Assembly (NCBI GenBank): GCA_021166725.1
Contig: JAJPES010000057.1
Span: 1-64,000, forward strand
DNA length: 64,000 nucleotides
From: Burkholderiaceae bacterium
GTDB lineage: Bacteria; Pseudomonadota; Gammaproteobacteria; Burkholderiales; Burkholderiaceae_E
Direction of reading: 5' to 3'
In this document: piece after piece, positions 3,965 through 11,996 of the stretch
Layout: every line of letters begins with the position of its first letter
Numbering within the stretch: the first letter of the stretch is position 1
Position numbers and translations under genes: made by a program
Notes under the pieces: model-generated
Told to the model about the DNA's origin: nothing
What the model saw: the letters and a program-made list of their open reading frames with translations, nothing else
Database searches by the model: none

Positions 3965-5623
3965 ATGTCCGACGCATTCGTCCGTGTCCGGGAGTTCGTC
4001 CGTTCGTCGCGCAGCCGCGCACAGCAGCCGACCCGGGCCGGGCCGTCGCTGCCCGGCTTCGCGCTCGCGCGGCGCCGTTTCGCGCTGGCGCTGTGCCTGC
4101 TCGCCCCGGCGCTGGTCTCCTGCGCAAGCCTTCCCGCTGCGCAACCGCGTCCGGCACAGCGCGCGTTCGACCACCCGCAGAGCACGTCGCTCGGTCGCAT
4201 CGTTGCCGCCGCTGCACCCGATGCGCATTCCTCGGGAGTGCGCCTGCTCGTTTCCGGCGAGGACGCGCTCGGCTCGCTGGTGACGCTCGCTCGGCGCGCG
4301 GAGCGCTCGCTCGACCTCGAGTACTACATCGTGCGCAACGACGCCTCCACGCGCACGCTGCTGCGCGAAGTGCACGCGGCCGCGGTGCGCGGCGTGCGCG
4401 TGCGGATGCTCGTGGACGACCTGAACACGGCCGGCAGCGACGAAAGCCTGCTGTGCTTCACCCGACACCCGAATGTCGAACTGCGGCTGTTCAATCCGTT
4501 TCCGGCCGGGCGCTTCTCCACCTACACGCGCATCCTCGCGTCGCTCACCGACGTCGACCGGATCAACCAGCGGATGCACGGCAAGATGTTCGTGGCCGAC
4601 AACGCGATCGCCGCCACCGGCGGGCGCAATCTCGGCGACGCGTATTTCGTGCGCAGCCCGAAGAGCAATTTCGTCGACCTCGACGTGCTCGTCGCGGGTC
4701 CGGCCGTGCGCCGGCTGTCGGCTGCCTTCGATCGCTTCTGGAACGACCCGCTCGCCTACCCGGCGGCGCAACTCATCCACGAGACGCCGCGCTGCGAGGG
4801 GCCGGTTTCGGAGTCGCCCCAGCCGGAGACGAACGCGCAGGGCGAGACCGTCGAAGCGCCCGACTCCACCCCGGTGCCGTCGAGCACGCTGGCTCGTGCA
4901 CTGAAGGAGGGACGGCTGAAGATGCGCTGGGACGACGTACGCGTGCTCGCCGACACGCCGGCGAAGATCACCGGCAGTAGCGCTCCCCCTCCCGCATCGG
5001 CGTCGATCGCCGACGACGTCGCCCGTCTGCTCGGCTCCGCGCGCACCGAGCTGATCCTGATCACGCCGTATTTCGTTCCCGGCGATCACGGCGTGGCGCT
5101 GATCCGCGCGCTTCGACAGCGCAACGTGCGCGTGCGCGTGCTGACCAACTCGCTGGCTTCCACCGACGCGCCGGTCGTGCACGTCGGCTACGCTCGCTAC
5201 CGCCCGCAGCTGATCGAAATGGGCGTGGAGCTGTACGAGCTGCGCAACCAGCTCGGCACGCCGCGCTCGCAGCTCGGGCGCTTCGGATCGTCGCTGGCGA
5301 GCCTGCACGCGAAGGCCGTGGTGGTCGATCGCCGCACGGTGCTGATCGGCTCGATGAACCTCGACCCGCGCTCGCAACGTCTGAACACCGAGATGGGCCT
5401 GGTGATCCCCGACACCGTCGTCGCCGGACAGGTCGTGCGGCTGTTCGACGACGTTTCGAGCAACAGCAGCTATCGCGTCGTCGAGGACGACGAAGGGCGG
5501 CTGCGCTGGATCGGCGGCTCGCCGACAGTGCCCGACGCCGAGGGCAGCGAACCGGGCGCCAGCGCCGGATTGCGCGCGCTGATGTGGCTGCTGACGCCGT
5601 TCGCGCCGGAAGAGATGCTGTGA
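3965..5623 (+). CDS. Phospholipase D family protein (cardiolipin synthase-like)
   Basis: Two HxK motifs (RMHGKMFVADNAIAATGGRN; SLHAKAVVVDRRTVLIGSMNLDPRS); N-terminal signal/lipobox-like segment. Confidence 0.88.
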   Translation: MSDAFVRVREFVRSSRSRAQQPTRAGPSLPGFALARRRFALALCLLAPALVSCASLPAAQPRPAQRAFDHPQSTSLGRIVAAAAPDAHSSGVRLLVSGEDALGSLVTLARRAERSLDLEYYIVRNDASTRTLLREVHAAAVRGVRVRMLVDDLNTAGSDESLLCFTRHPNVELRLFNPFPAGRFSTYTRILASLTDVDRINQRMHGKMFVADNAIAATGGRNLGDAYFVRSPKSNFVDLDVLVAGPAVRRLSAAFDRFWNDPLAYPAAQLIHETPRCEGPVSESPQPETNAQGETVEAPDSTPVPSSTLARALKEGRLKMRWDDVRVLADTPAKITGSSAPPPASASIADDVARLLGSARTELILITPYFVPGDHGVALIRALRQRNVRVRVLTNSLASTDAPVVHVGYARYRPQLIEMGVELYELRNQLGTPRSQLGRFGSSLASLHAKAVVVDRRTVLIGSMNLDPRSQRLNTEMGLVIPDTVVAGQVVRLFDDVSSNSSYRVVEDDEGRLRWIGGSPTVPDAEGSEPGASAGLRALMWLLTPFAPEEML

Positions 5624-5670
5624 GATAGGGGCGACGAGCAATCCCGATCGACGCCGACCCGAACGCGCCG

Positions 5671-5937
5671 GGTTCGCTGCCGTTCTCCCCGACCACGACT
5701 CTTACCGTCCGCCTCAGCGGTGCCCTGCGCGATTTCGTAGCCGAGAGCGTGGGGGGGGACGGCGACTATGAGAACGTCAGCGCATACATCCGGGATCTGA
5801 TCCGCCGCGACAAGGAGCGCAAGGAGCAGGAGTCCTTCGAGCGACTGAGGGCCGAGTTGGTCCATGCCTTTACCGGCCCGGAATCCTCGTATCGGCCGCT
5901 GAAGGCGGCGGACGTGATCGCGCGCAACCGGGGCTGA
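5671..5937 (+). pseudogene. ParD-type antitoxin, start codon unclear
   Basis: TLTVRLSGALRDFVAESV(G)GDGDYENVSAYIRDLIRRDKERKEQ resembles ParD. No ATG/GTG/TTG in frame before the conserved N-terminus; the first in-frame GTG (5749) would remove it. Confidence 0.55.
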
Positions 5938-5941
5938 TCAG

Positions 5942-6263
5942 GTGGCCCGAGTGCGGGTCCGGAAGTCGGCGTCCTAACGGCTCGACGAAATCTATCGCTA
6001 CACACGCGACCGCGGAGGCGTTCGACAGGCCGATCGTTACATCCAGGGGTTGTTCGAGAAGTTCGACGGCATCGCGATAACAGCAAGACGCTTTCACGTC
6101 CGATTCCCGCCGACTTCGGAGTCGCCGGCTACTTCTTCCGTTACGAACGGCACTTCGTTTACTGGCGCTGGCTCTCGAACGGCGACGTCGGCATCGTGAC
6201 GATCCTGCACGAGCGGATGCATCTGATCGAACGCTTCCGGGACGATTTCGAAGCATTCCGAAC
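5942..6263 (+). pseudogene. ParE-type toxin remnant (internal stop plus frameshift)
   Basis: VARVRVRKSAS*RLDEIYRYTRDRGGVRQADRYIQGLFEKFDGIA then, in another frame, SKTLSRPIPADFGVAGYFFRYERHFVYWRWLSNGDVGIVTILHERMHLIERFRDDF. Confidence 0.75.
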
Positions 6264-6281
6264 TGGAGCGGGTGAAGGGAA
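6264..6281. repeat. Distal attachment-site direct repeat (copy of tRNA-Gly 3' end)
   Basis: tggagcgggtgaagggaa, identical to 11923..11940 within tRNA-Gly. Confidence 0.85.
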
Positions 6282-6311
6282 ATACACAACCGGCCGCATG
6301 GCCGAGATGGG

Positions 6312-6890
6312 CACGCCGATCGACACCACGAGGACCATGACCATGATCACGATCATCACGACCGCGACTACCCGTTCGATTGGAATGAGGCTCTGCGCAT
6401 CTGTCTGAGGGCGGTCGCAGCCGTTGTCCCTGGTTCAAATGGTGGGAGCCGTATCCAGCGGTCAGCGTAATCGGAGTCATTGGCTTGGTGATCTGTGGTT
6501 GGCCGATCTTCAAGGAAGCGCTGGAGCACCTGCAGGCCCGGCGCATGGCGATGGAACTGTCGAGGACCCTCGCGATCGTTGCCGCCGCCCCAATCGGCGA
6601 ATTTTTCACCGCCTTGGTGATCACGCTGTCGTGCTGATTGCGGAGGTGCTGGAGAGTCTGACGGTCGGCCGCGGCCGCAAGGCTACCCGGGACCTGCTGA
6701 AGCTTTTGCCGCGTGAGGTGTCGGTGCGTAGGATGGGTTCTATCAAGACCGTCTCGGCCGAGGAACTGTCAGTGGGTGATGTGATTCTGGTTTCCCCAGG
6801 CGGCCGCCTTCCGGTCGACGGTGTTGTGGTCTCCGGCCACTCATTCACCGACGAATCGCGGATCACCGGCGAGTCACGCTGGCGGTCTCG
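6312..6890 (+). pseudogene. Heavy-metal P-type (P1B) ATPase N-terminal remnant, multiply frameshifted
   Basis: Frame pieces: HADRHHEDHDHDHDHHDRDYPFDWNEALRICL; WWEPYPAVSVIGVIGLVICGWPIFKEALEHLQARRMAMELSRTLAIVAAAPIGEFFTALVITL; VLIAEVLESLTVGRGRKATRDLLKLLP...SVGDVILVSPGGRLPVDGVVVSGHSFTDESRITGES. Catalytic core absent. Confidence 0.8.
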
Positions 6891-7073
6891 CTCGCCACGG
6901 CCGTGATCACGCTGGCCGTCGTCGCTGGCCTCGTGGCCGGCGTGGTCGACTACATGACTTTGCACGGCAGCCGCCTGCATGATCGATGAGGCTTGCAGCT
7001 TGCCCCGGCGCCCGCGACGACACGGCGACCAGCCGCTGCGGCGGCGTGCACGAACCGGATTGAGGACGGACAC

Positions 7074-8438
7074 ATGAAAACCTTGATCACCATGTGCATC
7101 GCCGCAGCGTCCATCCGGGCCGGAGTGGCCGCGGCGGATCCCGCGGACCTCGCCCAGGCGAAGCCGGCGTTGTCGGCGCAGGCGTCGAACCCCCACACCA
7201 TGGACTGGATGCAGGGCTTTCCACCCGCGCCGGACAAGACGATCCGCGTCACCGATGCGGACTATTTCGCGTTTCCGAAACTGCGCTGGACGGTCTGCCA
7301 CTTCCGCGAGCTGATGCCGACCGCGGGCGTGCGCAGCGGCACGACGGGCGCCAGCGCGTTGCCGCTGGCGCTCGATCCGGGCATCGACGCGGTGACCTTC
7401 ACCCCGCTCGGCAGCCACCAGCCGATGACCTGGACGGCAGCGTTCGACGCCAACTACAGCGATGGCGTGCTGGTGCTGCACCGCGGCCGCATCGTGTACG
7501 AACGCTACGGTGGTTGCCTTGGCCCGCATACCTTGCACGGCGCCATGTCGGTGACCAAGAGCATCACCGGCTTGTTGGGCGAGATGCTGGTGGTCACGGG
7601 CAAGCTGGATGAAACCGCCCGCGTGGGCGCGCTGATTCCGGAACTGGACCAGAGTGCCTTTGGCGACGCCACCGTGCGCCAGGTGATGGACATGACCAGC
7701 GCGCTCGACTATTCGGAGGATTACGCCGATCCGAACGCCGAGGTCTGGGCCTACGCCAGGGCCGGCAGTGCGCTGCCCGCGCCCGCCGGCTACACCGGGC
7801 CGCGCAGCTACTTCGAGTTCCTGCAGACGGTGAAGAAGAAAGGCACCCATGGCGAGGCGTTCGGCTACAAGACGGTCAACGCCGATGTGCTGGGTTGGCT
7901 GATCGCGCGCACCACGGGCAAGTCGGTGGCCGAGATCCTGGCCGACACGGTCTGGACCCGGATCGGCGCCGAACGCGAGGCCTTCTACACGGTCGATTCC
8001 ATCGGCACGCCGTTCGCAGGCGGCGGCTTCAACGCCACCCTTCGCGACGTGGCGCGACTGGGCCTGCTGGTCTTGAACGACGGCCGCTGGAACGGCCGGC
8101 AGGTCATTCCGGCCAAGGCGATCGGGCGCATCCGCGCCGGCGGCGACAAGGTCGCCTTCGCCAAGGGCGGCTACGGTCTGCTGAAGGGCTGGAGCTACCG
8201 CGACATGTGGTGGATCAGCCATGACGATCACGGCGCGTTTGCCGCGCGCGGCGTGCACGGCCAGACGATCTGGATCGACCCGGCCGCGCAGATGGTGATC
8301 GTGCGCTTCGCCTCCACCCCGGTGGCGGCGAACGCATCCAGCGATCCGACCTCGCTGCCCGCCTTTCGCGCCATCGCCGATTACCTGATGGCACACGACC
8401 GCGACAGCGGCGCGACCCCGGCGGGCCGGAAGCAATGA
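7074..8438 (+). CDS. Serine hydrolase (beta-lactamase class C family)
   Basis: Signal-peptide-like N-terminus; SVTKSITGLLGEML (SxxK), MDMTSALDYSEDYADP, YGLLKGWSYRDMWWISHDDHGAFAARGVHGQTIWIDP. Confidence 0.85.
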   Translation: MKTLITMCIAAASIRAGVAAADPADLAQAKPALSAQASNPHTMDWMQGFPPAPDKTIRVTDADYFAFPKLRWTVCHFRELMPTAGVRSGTTGASALPLALDPGIDAVTFTPLGSHQPMTWTAAFDANYSDGVLVLHRGRIVYERYGGCLGPHTLHGAMSVTKSITGLLGEMLVVTGKLDETARVGALIPELDQSAFGDATVRQVMDMTSALDYSEDYADPNAEVWAYARAGSALPAPAGYTGPRSYFEFLQTVKKKGTHGEAFGYKTVNADVLGWLIARTTGKSVAEILADTVWTRIGAEREAFYTVDSIGTPFAGGGFNATLRDVARLGLLVLNDGRWNGRQVIPAKAIGRIRAGGDKVAFAKGGYGLLKGWSYRDMWWISHDDHGAFAARGVHGQTIWIDPAAQMVIVRFASTPVAANASSDPTSLPAFRAIADYLMAHDRDSGATPAGRKQ

Positions 8439-10012
8439 GCATGCGGGCCAGGCGCGGTCGTCGCTGGTGGATCCTGCTAGCCGTGTTGGCGCCGCTGGCC
8501 GGCTTCCTGACGATGGTCGGCTGTGCCTCGCTGCCATCGCTCGAGGGCCGCACGCCCAGCACCGCGCTCGACGCCGAACAGGCACAGGCTACGCGACTGG
8601 GCGTGGCGACGCGGCCGCTGGTGGCGGCGCATCCCGGCACCAGCGGCCTATTGCCGCTGACCGATGCCCGGGCGGCGTTCGCGGCGCGGGCCTTGCTGGC
8701 GCGGCACGCCGAACGCACCATCGACGTCCAGTACTACATCTGGCAGGACGACGTCACCGGCACCCTGCTGCTCACCGAACTGGAACGTGCCGCCGGACGC
8801 GGCGTGCGCGTGCGCCTGCTGCTCGACGACAACGGCATCCGCGGGATCGACGACGCGCTCGTCGCACTCGCCGCGCAGCCGAACTTCGAAGTGCGGCTGT
8901 TCAATCCCTTCACCTTCAGGCACCCCAAATGGGTCAATTACCTGACCGCGTTCCCGCGCCTCAATCACCGCATGCACAACAAGTCGTTCACGGTGGACAA
9001 CGCGGTCACCATCATCGGCGGGCGCAACGTCGGCGACACCTACTTCGGGGCGACCGACGAGGTCGCCTTTGTCGATCTCGACGTGCTGGCGATCGGCCCG
9101 GTGGTGCCCGAGGTGTCGCACGAGTTCGACCGCTACTGGGCCAGCCGATCCGCCTATCCGGTCGAGCGCATCGTCGGCAAGCCGGCGCATGATGCGCTGA
9201 CGCACCTGCATGCCCGCGAGACGCGCATCGGCGACGACCCGGCGGCCCGGATCTATCGGCAGGCACTGGCGGAAAACCATGCCGTGCAGGCGTTGCTCGA
9301 TTACAGCGCGGAGCTGACCTGGGCACCCACGCGGACTATCGGCGACAGTCCGGCCAAGGCGCTGCGGGCACAAGGCGACGGTGAGCGCCTGATCGATGAG
9401 CTGGCCCCGGTATTTGCCGACACCCGGGTTTCTCTGCAACTGGTGTCGCCCTACCTGGTGCTCGGCGACAAGGGCACGCGCGATGTCGCGGCCATGGCTC
9501 GGCGCGGTGTCGACGTGCAGGTCCTGACCAATTCCCTGGCCGCCACCGACGTGGCGGCCGTGCACGCCGGCTACGCCAAGCGACGCAAGCAGCTGCTCGC
9601 GGCCGGGGTCAGGCTGTACGAGCTGCGCCCCACCGGCCATCGCCTCGATGATCGCGATCTGGCCGGGCCGTTCGGCAGCTCGGGTTCGAGCCTGCACGCC
9701 AAGACCTTTGCCGTCGACGATCGAACGCTTTTCATCGGCTCGTTCAATTTCGATCCTCGTTCCGCCAACCTCAACACGGAAATGGGCTTCCTGGTCGACA
9801 GCCCCGCGCTCGCCCAGACCATGCACGAGGCATTCGCGCACGAGGTGCCGGCGCGAGCCTACGAGGTCAGGCTCGATGCCGACGGCAAGCTTTACTGGCT
9901 GCTGCGGCAGGGCGATGCAGTGCAGCGTTTCGATACCGAACCCGACACCTCGTGGCTGCGCCGCATGAGCGTGCGCCTGCTCGCGCTGCTGCCGATCGAC
10001 TGGTTGCTCTAG
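8435..10012 (+). CDS. Phospholipase D family protein (second paralogue)
   Basis: HRMHNKSFTVDNAVTIIGGRN and SLHAKTFAVDDRTLFIGSFNFDPRS HxK motifs; overlaps the serine hydrolase stop by 4 bp. Confidence 0.88.
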   Translation: MSMRARRGRRWWILLAVLAPLAGFLTMVGCASLPSLEGRTPSTALDAEQAQATRLGVATRPLVAAHPGTSGLLPLTDARAAFAARALLARHAERTIDVQYYIWQDDVTGTLLLTELERAAGRGVRVRLLLDDNGIRGIDDALVALAAQPNFEVRLFNPFTFRHPKWVNYLTAFPRLNHRMHNKSFTVDNAVTIIGGRNVGDTYFGATDEVAFVDLDVLAIGPVVPEVSHEFDRYWASRSAYPVERIVGKPAHDALTHLHARETRIGDDPAARIYRQALAENHAVQALLDYSAELTWAPTRTIGDSPAKALRAQGDGERLIDELAPVFADTRVSLQLVSPYLVLGDKGTRDVAAMARRGVDVQVLTNSLAATDVAAVHAGYAKRRKQLLAAGVRLYELRPTGHRLDDRDLAGPFGSSGSSLHAKTFAVDDRTLFIGSFNFDPRSANLNTEMGFLVDSPALAQTMHEAFAHEVPARAYEVRLDADGKLYWLLRQGDAVQRFDTEPDTSWLRRMSVRLLALLPIDWLL

Positions 10013-10175
10013 TACGCCGACCCACAGGTATCGCAACAAGATGAAAGCGATGGATTCGGCCCCAGGGCAAGGCGCAAACCGCAGCCATTGCAGTAGCTAT
10101 GGCGAGGTTTTGCAACGCCTTCCTGGGGCCGAAGACGCGCTTTCATGTTGCGATACCTGTGGGTCGGCGTACTAG
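10009..10175. repeat. Near-palindromic hairpin element (MITE/REP-like) with 30-bp perfect terminal inverted repeats
   Basis: Left arm ctagtacgccgacccacaggtatcgcaaca (10009-10038), right arm its exact reverse complement (10146-10175); inner arms ttcggccccagg / cctggggccgaa. Confidence 0.88.
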
Positions 10176-10209
10176 GAGCCTGGGGCCAGGCCTCGGCAAA
10201 GGAAGGCGG

Positions 10210-10239
10210 GCGCGCCGGCGGATGGGATGGCCGGCGCGC
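10210..10239. terminator. Stem-loop, possible terminator or repeat remnant
   Basis: gcgcgccggc-ggatgggatg-gccggcgcgc: perfect 10-bp arms, 10-nt loop; no obvious U-tract. Confidence 0.4.
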
Positions 10240-10257
10240 AGGCTGCAGTCAACATGC

Positions 10258-10712
10258 TGCAGTCAATACGTCGTCCAGCCCCCATCGGTGGCTCGGGTGG
10301 CGCCCCTGATGTTGGACGCGTCTGCAGACAGCAGGAACAGGATCGTGCTGGCCTGCTCGGCGGGCGTGGCCATGCGGTGGTTGGAGTCGGCGTACATCAG
10401 CAGGCTCTGCGTTTTCGCCAGGCCCATGTTCGGAAAGCCGGCCGCTTGCCTGCGCTCCTTCTGCAAGGCGACGACCTTCCGAGTTCACGCGGATGCCGTA
10501 CGGCGCGTAATCGACCGCCGCGTTGCGCGGTCAGGCCGGTCACCGCGTGCTTGCTCGCCACGTAGGCCGGATTTCCGGCCAGTCCGCTCAGCCCGGCGAC
10601 GGATCCGATGTTGACGATCGCGCCGCCCGCGCCCTGGCGCACCAGCTGCCGCAATTCCGAGCGCAGCGACTGGAAGGTGCCGGTCGCGTTGACGCGCCGC
10701 GCGGATCGCGGT
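10258..10712 (-). pseudogene. SDR oxidoreductase C-terminal remnant
   Basis: VNATGTFQSLRSELRQLVRQGAGGAIVNIGSVAGLSGLAGNPAYVASKHAVTGLTAQ...LQKERRQAAGFPNMGLAKTQSLLMYADSN...DGGWTTY split over frames; Rossmann N-terminus missing. Confidence 0.75.
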
Positions 10713-10743
10713 AAGAGAAAAAAACACGACAAGAGCGCAGAGG

Positions 10744-11511
10744 TCAGTCGAGTTCCTGCACACCCCCGCCCGAGACGGTGAGCACCTGGCCGCTGATCCA
10801 GCTTGCCGCTGGCGAGCACAGGAACAGCGCAGCGCGTGCAATGTCCTGCGCTTCGCCCAAGCGCTTGATGGGCGTGTGACGGAGCATCGTGGCCTCGATT
10901 TCAGGCGTCAGCACCGACGCCAGCGCCGCGGTCCTGGTGGCGCCTGGCGCGATGGCGTTGACGCGAATGCCCTTGGCGCCCAGATCGAAAGCAATGTTGC
11001 GGGTCAGGTGATTGACAGCGGCTTTGGACGATCCGTAGGACGCCATGCGCGTGTTACTGTTTTCACCCGACATGGAAGAGATGTTGAGCACCGCACCGCG
11101 CTTTTCCTTTTCCATGTGGGGCGCGGCCAGCTGGATCAGGCGAAACAGGCCGAACACGTTGATCTCGTAGGCCCGGCGAAAGTCCTCCATCGGCATGTCG
11201 AAAGGCTTGGGGCCACCGCCGCCGGCGTTGTTCACCAACAGCGTCAGCTTGCCGAATTCCGACACGGCCGCGTTCACTGTCGCGGCCAGATCGCTTTCCT
11301 TCGTCACATTGCAGGCAACGCCAATGGCACGCCCGCCAGCTGCCGTGATTTCCGCTGCCACGCCCACTGCCGTCCTGGCGTCCAGATCACTGACGACCAC
11401 GGCTGCGCCAGCCTCTGCAAACAACATCGCAATCGCCCGGCCGATGCCGGCGCCGGCACCGGTGACCAGCGCCACATCGTTGTCCAATTTGAGAAGATCC
11501 GAAAAATGCAT
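10744..11511 (-). CDS. hdhA: SDR oxidoreductase, 7-alpha-hydroxysteroid dehydrogenase (HdhA)-like
   Basis: MHFSDLLKLDNDVALVTGAGAGIGRAIAMLFAEAGA...LLVNNAGGGGPKPFDMPMEDFRRAYEINVF...LFLCSPAASWISGQVLTVSGGGVQELD closely follows the HdhA pattern. Confidence 0.8.
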   Translation of the reverse strand: MHFSDLLKLDNDVALVTGAGAGIGRAIAMLFAEAGAAVVVSDLDARTAVGVAAEITAAGGRAIGVACNVTKESDLAATVNAAVSEFGKLTLLVNNAGGGGPKPFDMPMEDFRRAYEINVFGLFRLIQLAAPHMEKEKRGAVLNISSMSGENSNTRMASYGSSKAAVNHLTRNIAFDLGAKGIRVNAIAPGATRTAALASVLTPEIEATMLRHTPIKRLGEAQDIARAALFLCSPAASWISGQVLTVSGGGVQELD

Positions 11512-11794
11512 GCTTGTCTCCGCTTCCGCGCGCTTCCGCTTGCGGTGAACATGGAGGTTGATGCTCTTGGCGACCAAGGCACGCGCCTCGTCGCGCAGCG
11601 CGCGGGCTTCGAGCAGCGATACCTCGGGACAGGCGCCGAACGACGTCCGCCTGGGCTCCTCGAGCCAGTAGTAGCGGAAGTGTCAGGTCTTGCCTCCTGT
11701 CCCTGCAACAGCGAGGGAGAGGCCCAAGGTGCGGGAGGGTGTAGTCGTTGCGGGTGGCTTTGGCGCACCGAACGGCCAGGTCGGAAAGTGCCAT
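11512..11794 (-). pseudogene. P4-type tyrosine integrase N-terminal remnant (DUF4102 / arm-binding domain)
   Basis: MALSDLAVRCAKATRNDYTLP [frameshift] LGLSLAVAGTGGKT*HFRYYWLEEPRRTSFGACPEVSLLEARALRDEARALVAKSINLHVHRK; catalytic domain absent. Confidence 0.82.
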
Positions 11795-11922
11795 GCTTCC
11801 CGCTCCCGAACGCGAGAGCGCGAGTCAGGAACTCGGTGCTGGTCACATCACCTGCGCGCCTCTACAAACAATCCGGAAACGGTCGTGGCCGGATTTCAGC
11901 GGACCTCCGCAGAGAGATGCAG

Positions 11923-11996
11923 TGGAGCGGGTGAAGGGAATCGAACCCTCGTATGCAGCTTGGGAAGCTGCCGTTCTGCCATTGAACTACACCCGC
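11923..11996 (-). tRNA. tRNA-Gly (CCC anticodon), CCA encoded
   Basis: gcgggtgtagttcaatggcagaacggcagcttcccaagctgcatacgagggttcgattcccttcacccgctcca on the minus strand; anticodon loop ttCCCaa; 74 nt. Confidence 0.95.

Follow-up and report, generated by a model that had tools for sequence, protein, structure and literature searches.

The stretch of DNA analysed here (the window) comprises 64,000 nucleotides from the draft genome of a bacterium that loci from an OsmC search place in the Burkholderiaceae, near Zeimonas and Quisquiliibacterium. The region of interest lies between a phospholipase D (PLD) gene and a tRNA-Gly(CCC) gene, and contains the following features:

3965–5623, plus strand: resident PLD gene; its 3′ end abuts tRNA-Gly in two relatives with empty sites
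5624–6263, plus strand: dead parDE, extra DNA outside the repeat; parD (5692–5934) lacks a start codon, and parE (5942–6267) has a stop and a frameshift
6264–6281, minus strand: distal att core, an exact copy without a tRNA, from the 18-mer search
6285–6873, plus strand: heavy-metal P-type ATPase, truncated and frameshifted; 67–90% amino acid identity to the ATPase of genome G011
7074–8438, plus strand: serine hydrolase (β-lactamase fold), intact
8435–10012, plus strand: PLD/cardiolipin-synthase-like gene, intact, with a 4-bp overlap with the hydrolase gene
10009–10175, no strand: MITE-like palindromic element of 167 bp, flanked on each side by CTAG, with terminal inverted repeats of 33 bp
10397–10710 (approximate limits), minus strand: second short-chain dehydrogenase (SDR), broken
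10744–11511, minus strand: SDR of the 7α-hydroxysteroid dehydrogenase (7α-HSDH) type, intact; starts ≈16 bp past the end of the integrase remnant
11527–11803, minus strand: P4-type integrase remnant (N-terminal arm domain), frameshifted, with a stop, truncated
11891–11922, minus strand: conserved arm on the tRNA side of the element, also present in pKF715A and in integrative elements from the genus
11923–11940, minus strand: att core at tRNA-Gly(CCC), 5′-TTCCCTTCACCCGCTCCA-3′, within the ICEbph-sal att consensus (PMC6563109)
11923–11996, minus strand: tRNA-Gly(CCC), the target of integration, whose last 18 bp (3′ end) form the tRNA-side att core

The original prediction described a decayed genomic island bounded by the 3′ end of the tRNA and an exact 18-bp copy of it at 6264–6281. 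Both ARAGORN and Rfam identified tRNA-Gly(CCC) at 11923–11996 on the minus strand, and an 18-mer search confirmed the exact repeat at 6264–6281 and 11923–11940, with no other copy in the window when up to three mismatches were allowed. The match between the two copies starts and stops with the 18-mer, which includes the CCA end. With both strands counted, the window offers 128,000 positions, so that about 2 × 10⁻⁶ exact matches to a given 18-mer (128,000/4¹⁸) would be expected by chance, or 0.02 with three mismatches allowed. Nor was the sequence common elsewhere in the genome: the assembly (88 contigs, 3.57 Mb, a draft at 89% completeness from which ≈11% of the genome may be absent) held a single additional copy with up to two mismatches, which forms the 3′ end of a different tRNA-Gly on contig C40. 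Such a repeat at the far end is expected of an island targeted to a tRNA by a tyrosine integrase.

Composition, proposed as a check on the island, gave a divided answer. By tetranucleotide profile, the region between the repeats deviated more than any other part of the window, with a distance of 0.266 compared to a mean of 0.161 (sd 0.023, maximum 0.208) for 48 pieces of the same size outside it. The GC content was ordinary, at 0.664 between the repeats versus 0.665 for the flanks, and thus gave no signal of foreign origin. We considered the possibility that the two 18-mers were a coincidence or an assembly error in ordinary chromosomal DNA, as might be suggested by the matching GC content and the draft state of the genome. 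However, the chance expectations given above are very low, the empty sites, integrase remnant and attP arm described below are concordant, and copies of the MITE from the island are also found on other contigs of the assembly. This explanation is in the main refuted by comparison with relatives, and we regard it as extremely improbable.

In both of the nearest relatives, G010 and G012, the site is empty. The alignment to G010, whose flanks are 84–88% identical to the window, breaks off at 11923 and resumes at 5624 after 16 bp, and that to G012 breaks off at 11923 and resumes at 5621 after 45 bp. In both genomes the 3′ end of the tRNA is followed by the end of the PLD gene, and parDE is missing together with the island. 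An ancestral gene content was rejected on the grounds of these empty sites. Because they join the tRNA to the end of the PLD gene at 5623, the extra DNA is 5624–11922, while the repeat encloses only 6282–11922. The 18-bp repeat had been taken as the limit of all foreign DNA, which is not supported, as the extra DNA starts at 5624 and not at 6264. In these two genomes the proposed pre-insertion junction, in which parE ran directly up to the tRNA with one copy of the 18-mer, is replaced by a PLD–tRNA junction. A FastTree analysis of HDAC, thiG–trmB and osmC grouped the window genome (G000) with G010, followed by G012, with a support of 0.987. Since G010, the sister, and G012 both have empty sites, the simplest reading is that all of 5624–11922 was gained in the lineage of the window genome. 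The gene order in these three genomes is PLD–tRNA–thiS (3965–5623 and 11923–11996 in the window), and it is tRNA–PLD–thiS in G005, G006, G009, G002 and G011, with unchanged orientations.

A junction between parE and the tRNA does occur in the more distant Quisquiliibacterium transsilvanicum, where a parE remnant, cut short, adjoins the same tRNA-Gly. The junction may therefore have been an intermediate, and parDE may be a former intermediate occupant of the tRNA site. (At this locus, L055 8746–9395, a PIN-domain toxin and a MazE-like antitoxin lie beside the parDE remnant.) If parDE had instead stood between the tRNA and the PLD gene in the ancestor and been lost from G010 and G012, the insertion would be 6282–11922 only, which would fit both the Q. 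transsilvanicum remnant and the position of the distal core directly after parE in the window. However, two losses would then be required, because G000 and G010 are sisters with G012 outside them. Furthermore, in G005, G006, G009, G002 and G011 the PLD gene flanks the tRNA on the opposite side, and the Quisquiliibacterium site is therefore not strictly the same place. We consider an ancestral parDE unlikely.

Immediately inside the tRNA end, in the geometry usual for such islands, is the remnant of a P4-type integrase, as originally proposed. It is read in two frames with 65–71% amino acid identity to an intact integrase of 624 residues in the congener G004, and ends after approximately codon 96; at the DNA level the identity is 74% over 367 aligned bp. 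The G004 integrase has the Arm-DNA-bind_3, central and catalytic domains, and is located at the same tRNA, ≈220 bp downstream (frame from 1462; tRNA end at 1241). Integrases of this tRNA-Gly(CCC)-specific type are intact in congeners. No cognate integrase was found in the window's own assembly at E 1e-40 (89% complete), the sole match being a 40% identical integrase on contig C60. The arm at 11891–11922 adjoins the tRNA, and ≈120–135 bp behind it are deleted relative to the relatives. The same arm follows the tRNA in G001 and G009. The circular pKF715A has a copy of the core with one mismatch, and this copy precedes the same arm that G002 carries. The core and arm of the window are 86.5% identical to the attP side of pKF715A over 52 bp, and the integrase stretch has 72% DNA identity. 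The G004 integrase is 82% identical to that of pKF715A, and an equally similar integrase is found on a Pseudomonas veronii plasmid. Cores without a tRNA are present in G002 (contig C44), G011 and G021, as in tandem elements or circles. In G002 (L035 9961) and G021 (L118 11632), the core lies at the junction of the integrase side with a conserved distal end, tgctaggaaatg. A search for tgctaggaaatg in the distal arm of the window gave no match.

The closest described element is ICEbph-sal of Pseudomonas KF707 and KF715 (circular form pKF715A), which has an 18-bp repeat, TTCCC(T/A)(T/C)(C/T)(G/A)CCCGCTCCA, at tRNA-Gly(CCC), followed by int (PMC6563109). The window element has the same target tRNA, a core that fits the published att consensus, the conserved attP arm, and a homologous P4-type integrase straight after the tRNA-side repeat. 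Unlike ICEbph-sal, it is only 5.6 kb long, its integrase is broken, and it has neither conjugation genes nor bph or sal genes. The related ICEclc of Pseudomonas knackmussii B13 is 105 kb long and has a type IV secretion system; it targets tRNA-Gly(GCC), and its integrase shares 59% identity with the ICEbph-sal enzyme (PMC6563109). Reading and annotation of the frames between the repeats revealed no relaxase or type IV secretion genes, and the window element is therefore a derivative, not a member, of the ICEbph-sal/ICEclc family. A search of the assembly (89% complete) for PF07514 (TraI_2) gave no match, in a run in which control genomes gave odd results. Elements that keep attL and attR while integration and transfer genes have been lost are known as CIMEs (PMC5704250), with the ICESt1-related elements as an example. 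The island likewise keeps both att sites and has no working integrase or transfer genes, and is a CIME-like remnant, a kind already known and well described. CIMEs are best described in streptococci, which belong to another phylum, and the likeness, read from sequence, consists of the att sites and the gene loss.

Thus, 6282–11922 is very probably the remnant of an ICEbph-sal-type element, related to ICEclc, that inserted at tRNA-Gly(CCC) and decayed to a CIME-like state, with parDE probably having arrived separately. A P4-type tyrosine integrase would have recognised the 18-bp 3′ end of the tRNA, and recombination between attP on a circular element and attB in the tRNA would have restored the tRNA while placing another 18-bp copy at the opposite end. 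The att geometry is observed, and from it we infer the act of recombination. Most of the integrase and any transfer genes would then have been lost, and the metal ATPase and one SDR would have decayed, leaving two exact att cores around the hydrolase–PLD pair, the 7α-HSDH-like SDR and the MITE. The element may have arrived as a whole ICE or as a small element, since the interval retains no ICE backbone gene. In favour of this reading are the exact, rare repeat, the empty sites, the G004 integrase, the pKF715A arm, the att consensus and target tRNA, the tetranucleotide profile, and the occurrence of cargo homologues elsewhere. Against it, the inner distal end in the window differs from that conserved in G002 and G021, the SDR–hydrolase pair is split and inverted relative to G377 and G585 (see below), and the assembly is a draft at 89% completeness.

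The dead parDE pair, which occupies the 640 bp from the resident PLD gene to the distal core, would represent a separate arrival, most simply, by parsimony, a relic of some earlier element at this tRNA. The extra DNA may accordingly consist of two successive islands, with an older parDE element whose far att site disappeared, followed by a younger one that inserted at the tRNA, leaving the 18-bp copy between them. Tandem accretion of this type is well described (PMC5704250). It would account for extra DNA that extends to 5624 when the repeat stops at 6264, and agrees with the Q. transsilvanicum parDE remnant next to this tRNA and with the tRNA-less cores of G002 and G021, which join element to element. 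In G011 (L061 1300–2064), an intact parDE lies 3′ of a 43-bp stretch resembling the 3′ end of another tRNA; no complete tRNA was found by this stretch. This is the third case of parDE adjoining a tRNA end. However, there is no third copy of the core near 5624, and parDE could have arrived by another route. We give such accretion an even chance; it refines the ICEbph-sal-type reading and does not oppose it.

The prediction of a decayed island held in that the integrase, the metal ATPase and one SDR are broken, in addition to parDE outside the repeat, and the whole is missing from G010 and G012. The decay is less extensive than had been proposed, as the serine hydrolase (7074–8438), PLD (8435–10012) and SDR (10744–11511) are full-length open frames. 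The SDR scores above the NCBIfam cut-off for 7α-hydroxysteroid dehydrogenase, and the hydrolase weakly matches 3-succinylated cholic acid synthase. Homologues of the two are adjacent and on the same strand in G377 and G585, which belong to two other families of the class, and form an apparent two-gene operon in these distant genomes (L099 6610–8838; L100 6692–9116). Their counterparts in the window stand apart and are inverted by comparison, as a split version of that arrangement. A Cereibacter plasmid carries an SDR pair in the same order, and in G003 the PLD and hydrolase homologues adjoin. No single close donor was apparent. Across 349 genomes from the order and 369 from the class, the hydrolase, PLD and SDR matches reached just 65–72% DNA identity. 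A search with the SDR part at E 1e-40 was negative in 299 other genomes from the order, and the best 15 plasmid matches listed (64–74%) covered single genes only. The cargo PLD is not a recent copy of the resident PLD, because its DNA identity to the resident gene of the relatives is only about 66–68%.

These results set the ends of the island at base level, and extend the ICEbph-sal type of att site and integrase to a Burkholderiaceae lineage near Zeimonas and Quisquiliibacterium. A reading bounded by the repeat overlooks 640 bp of extra DNA outside it; the corrections that count are that the extra DNA begins on the left at 5624 instead of 6264, and that three cargo genes are intact. The general picture is unchanged, and the use of the data lies in annotation and in tracing the traffic of elements at tRNA-Gly(CCC). 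One might speculate, although we think it unlikely, that the remnant is still movable, in that an incoming tRNA-Gly(CCC)-specific ICE could excise or capture the hydrolase–PLD–SDR genes via the exact cores, making this tRNA a standing point of exchange between Burkholderiaceae and Pseudomonas elements.

The 167-bp element at 10009–10175 is a MITE and probably recent. Seven further near-full-length copies (91–97% identical) are present in the assembly, CTAG flanks every copy examined, and the element is nearly lacking in 200 genomes of the order.
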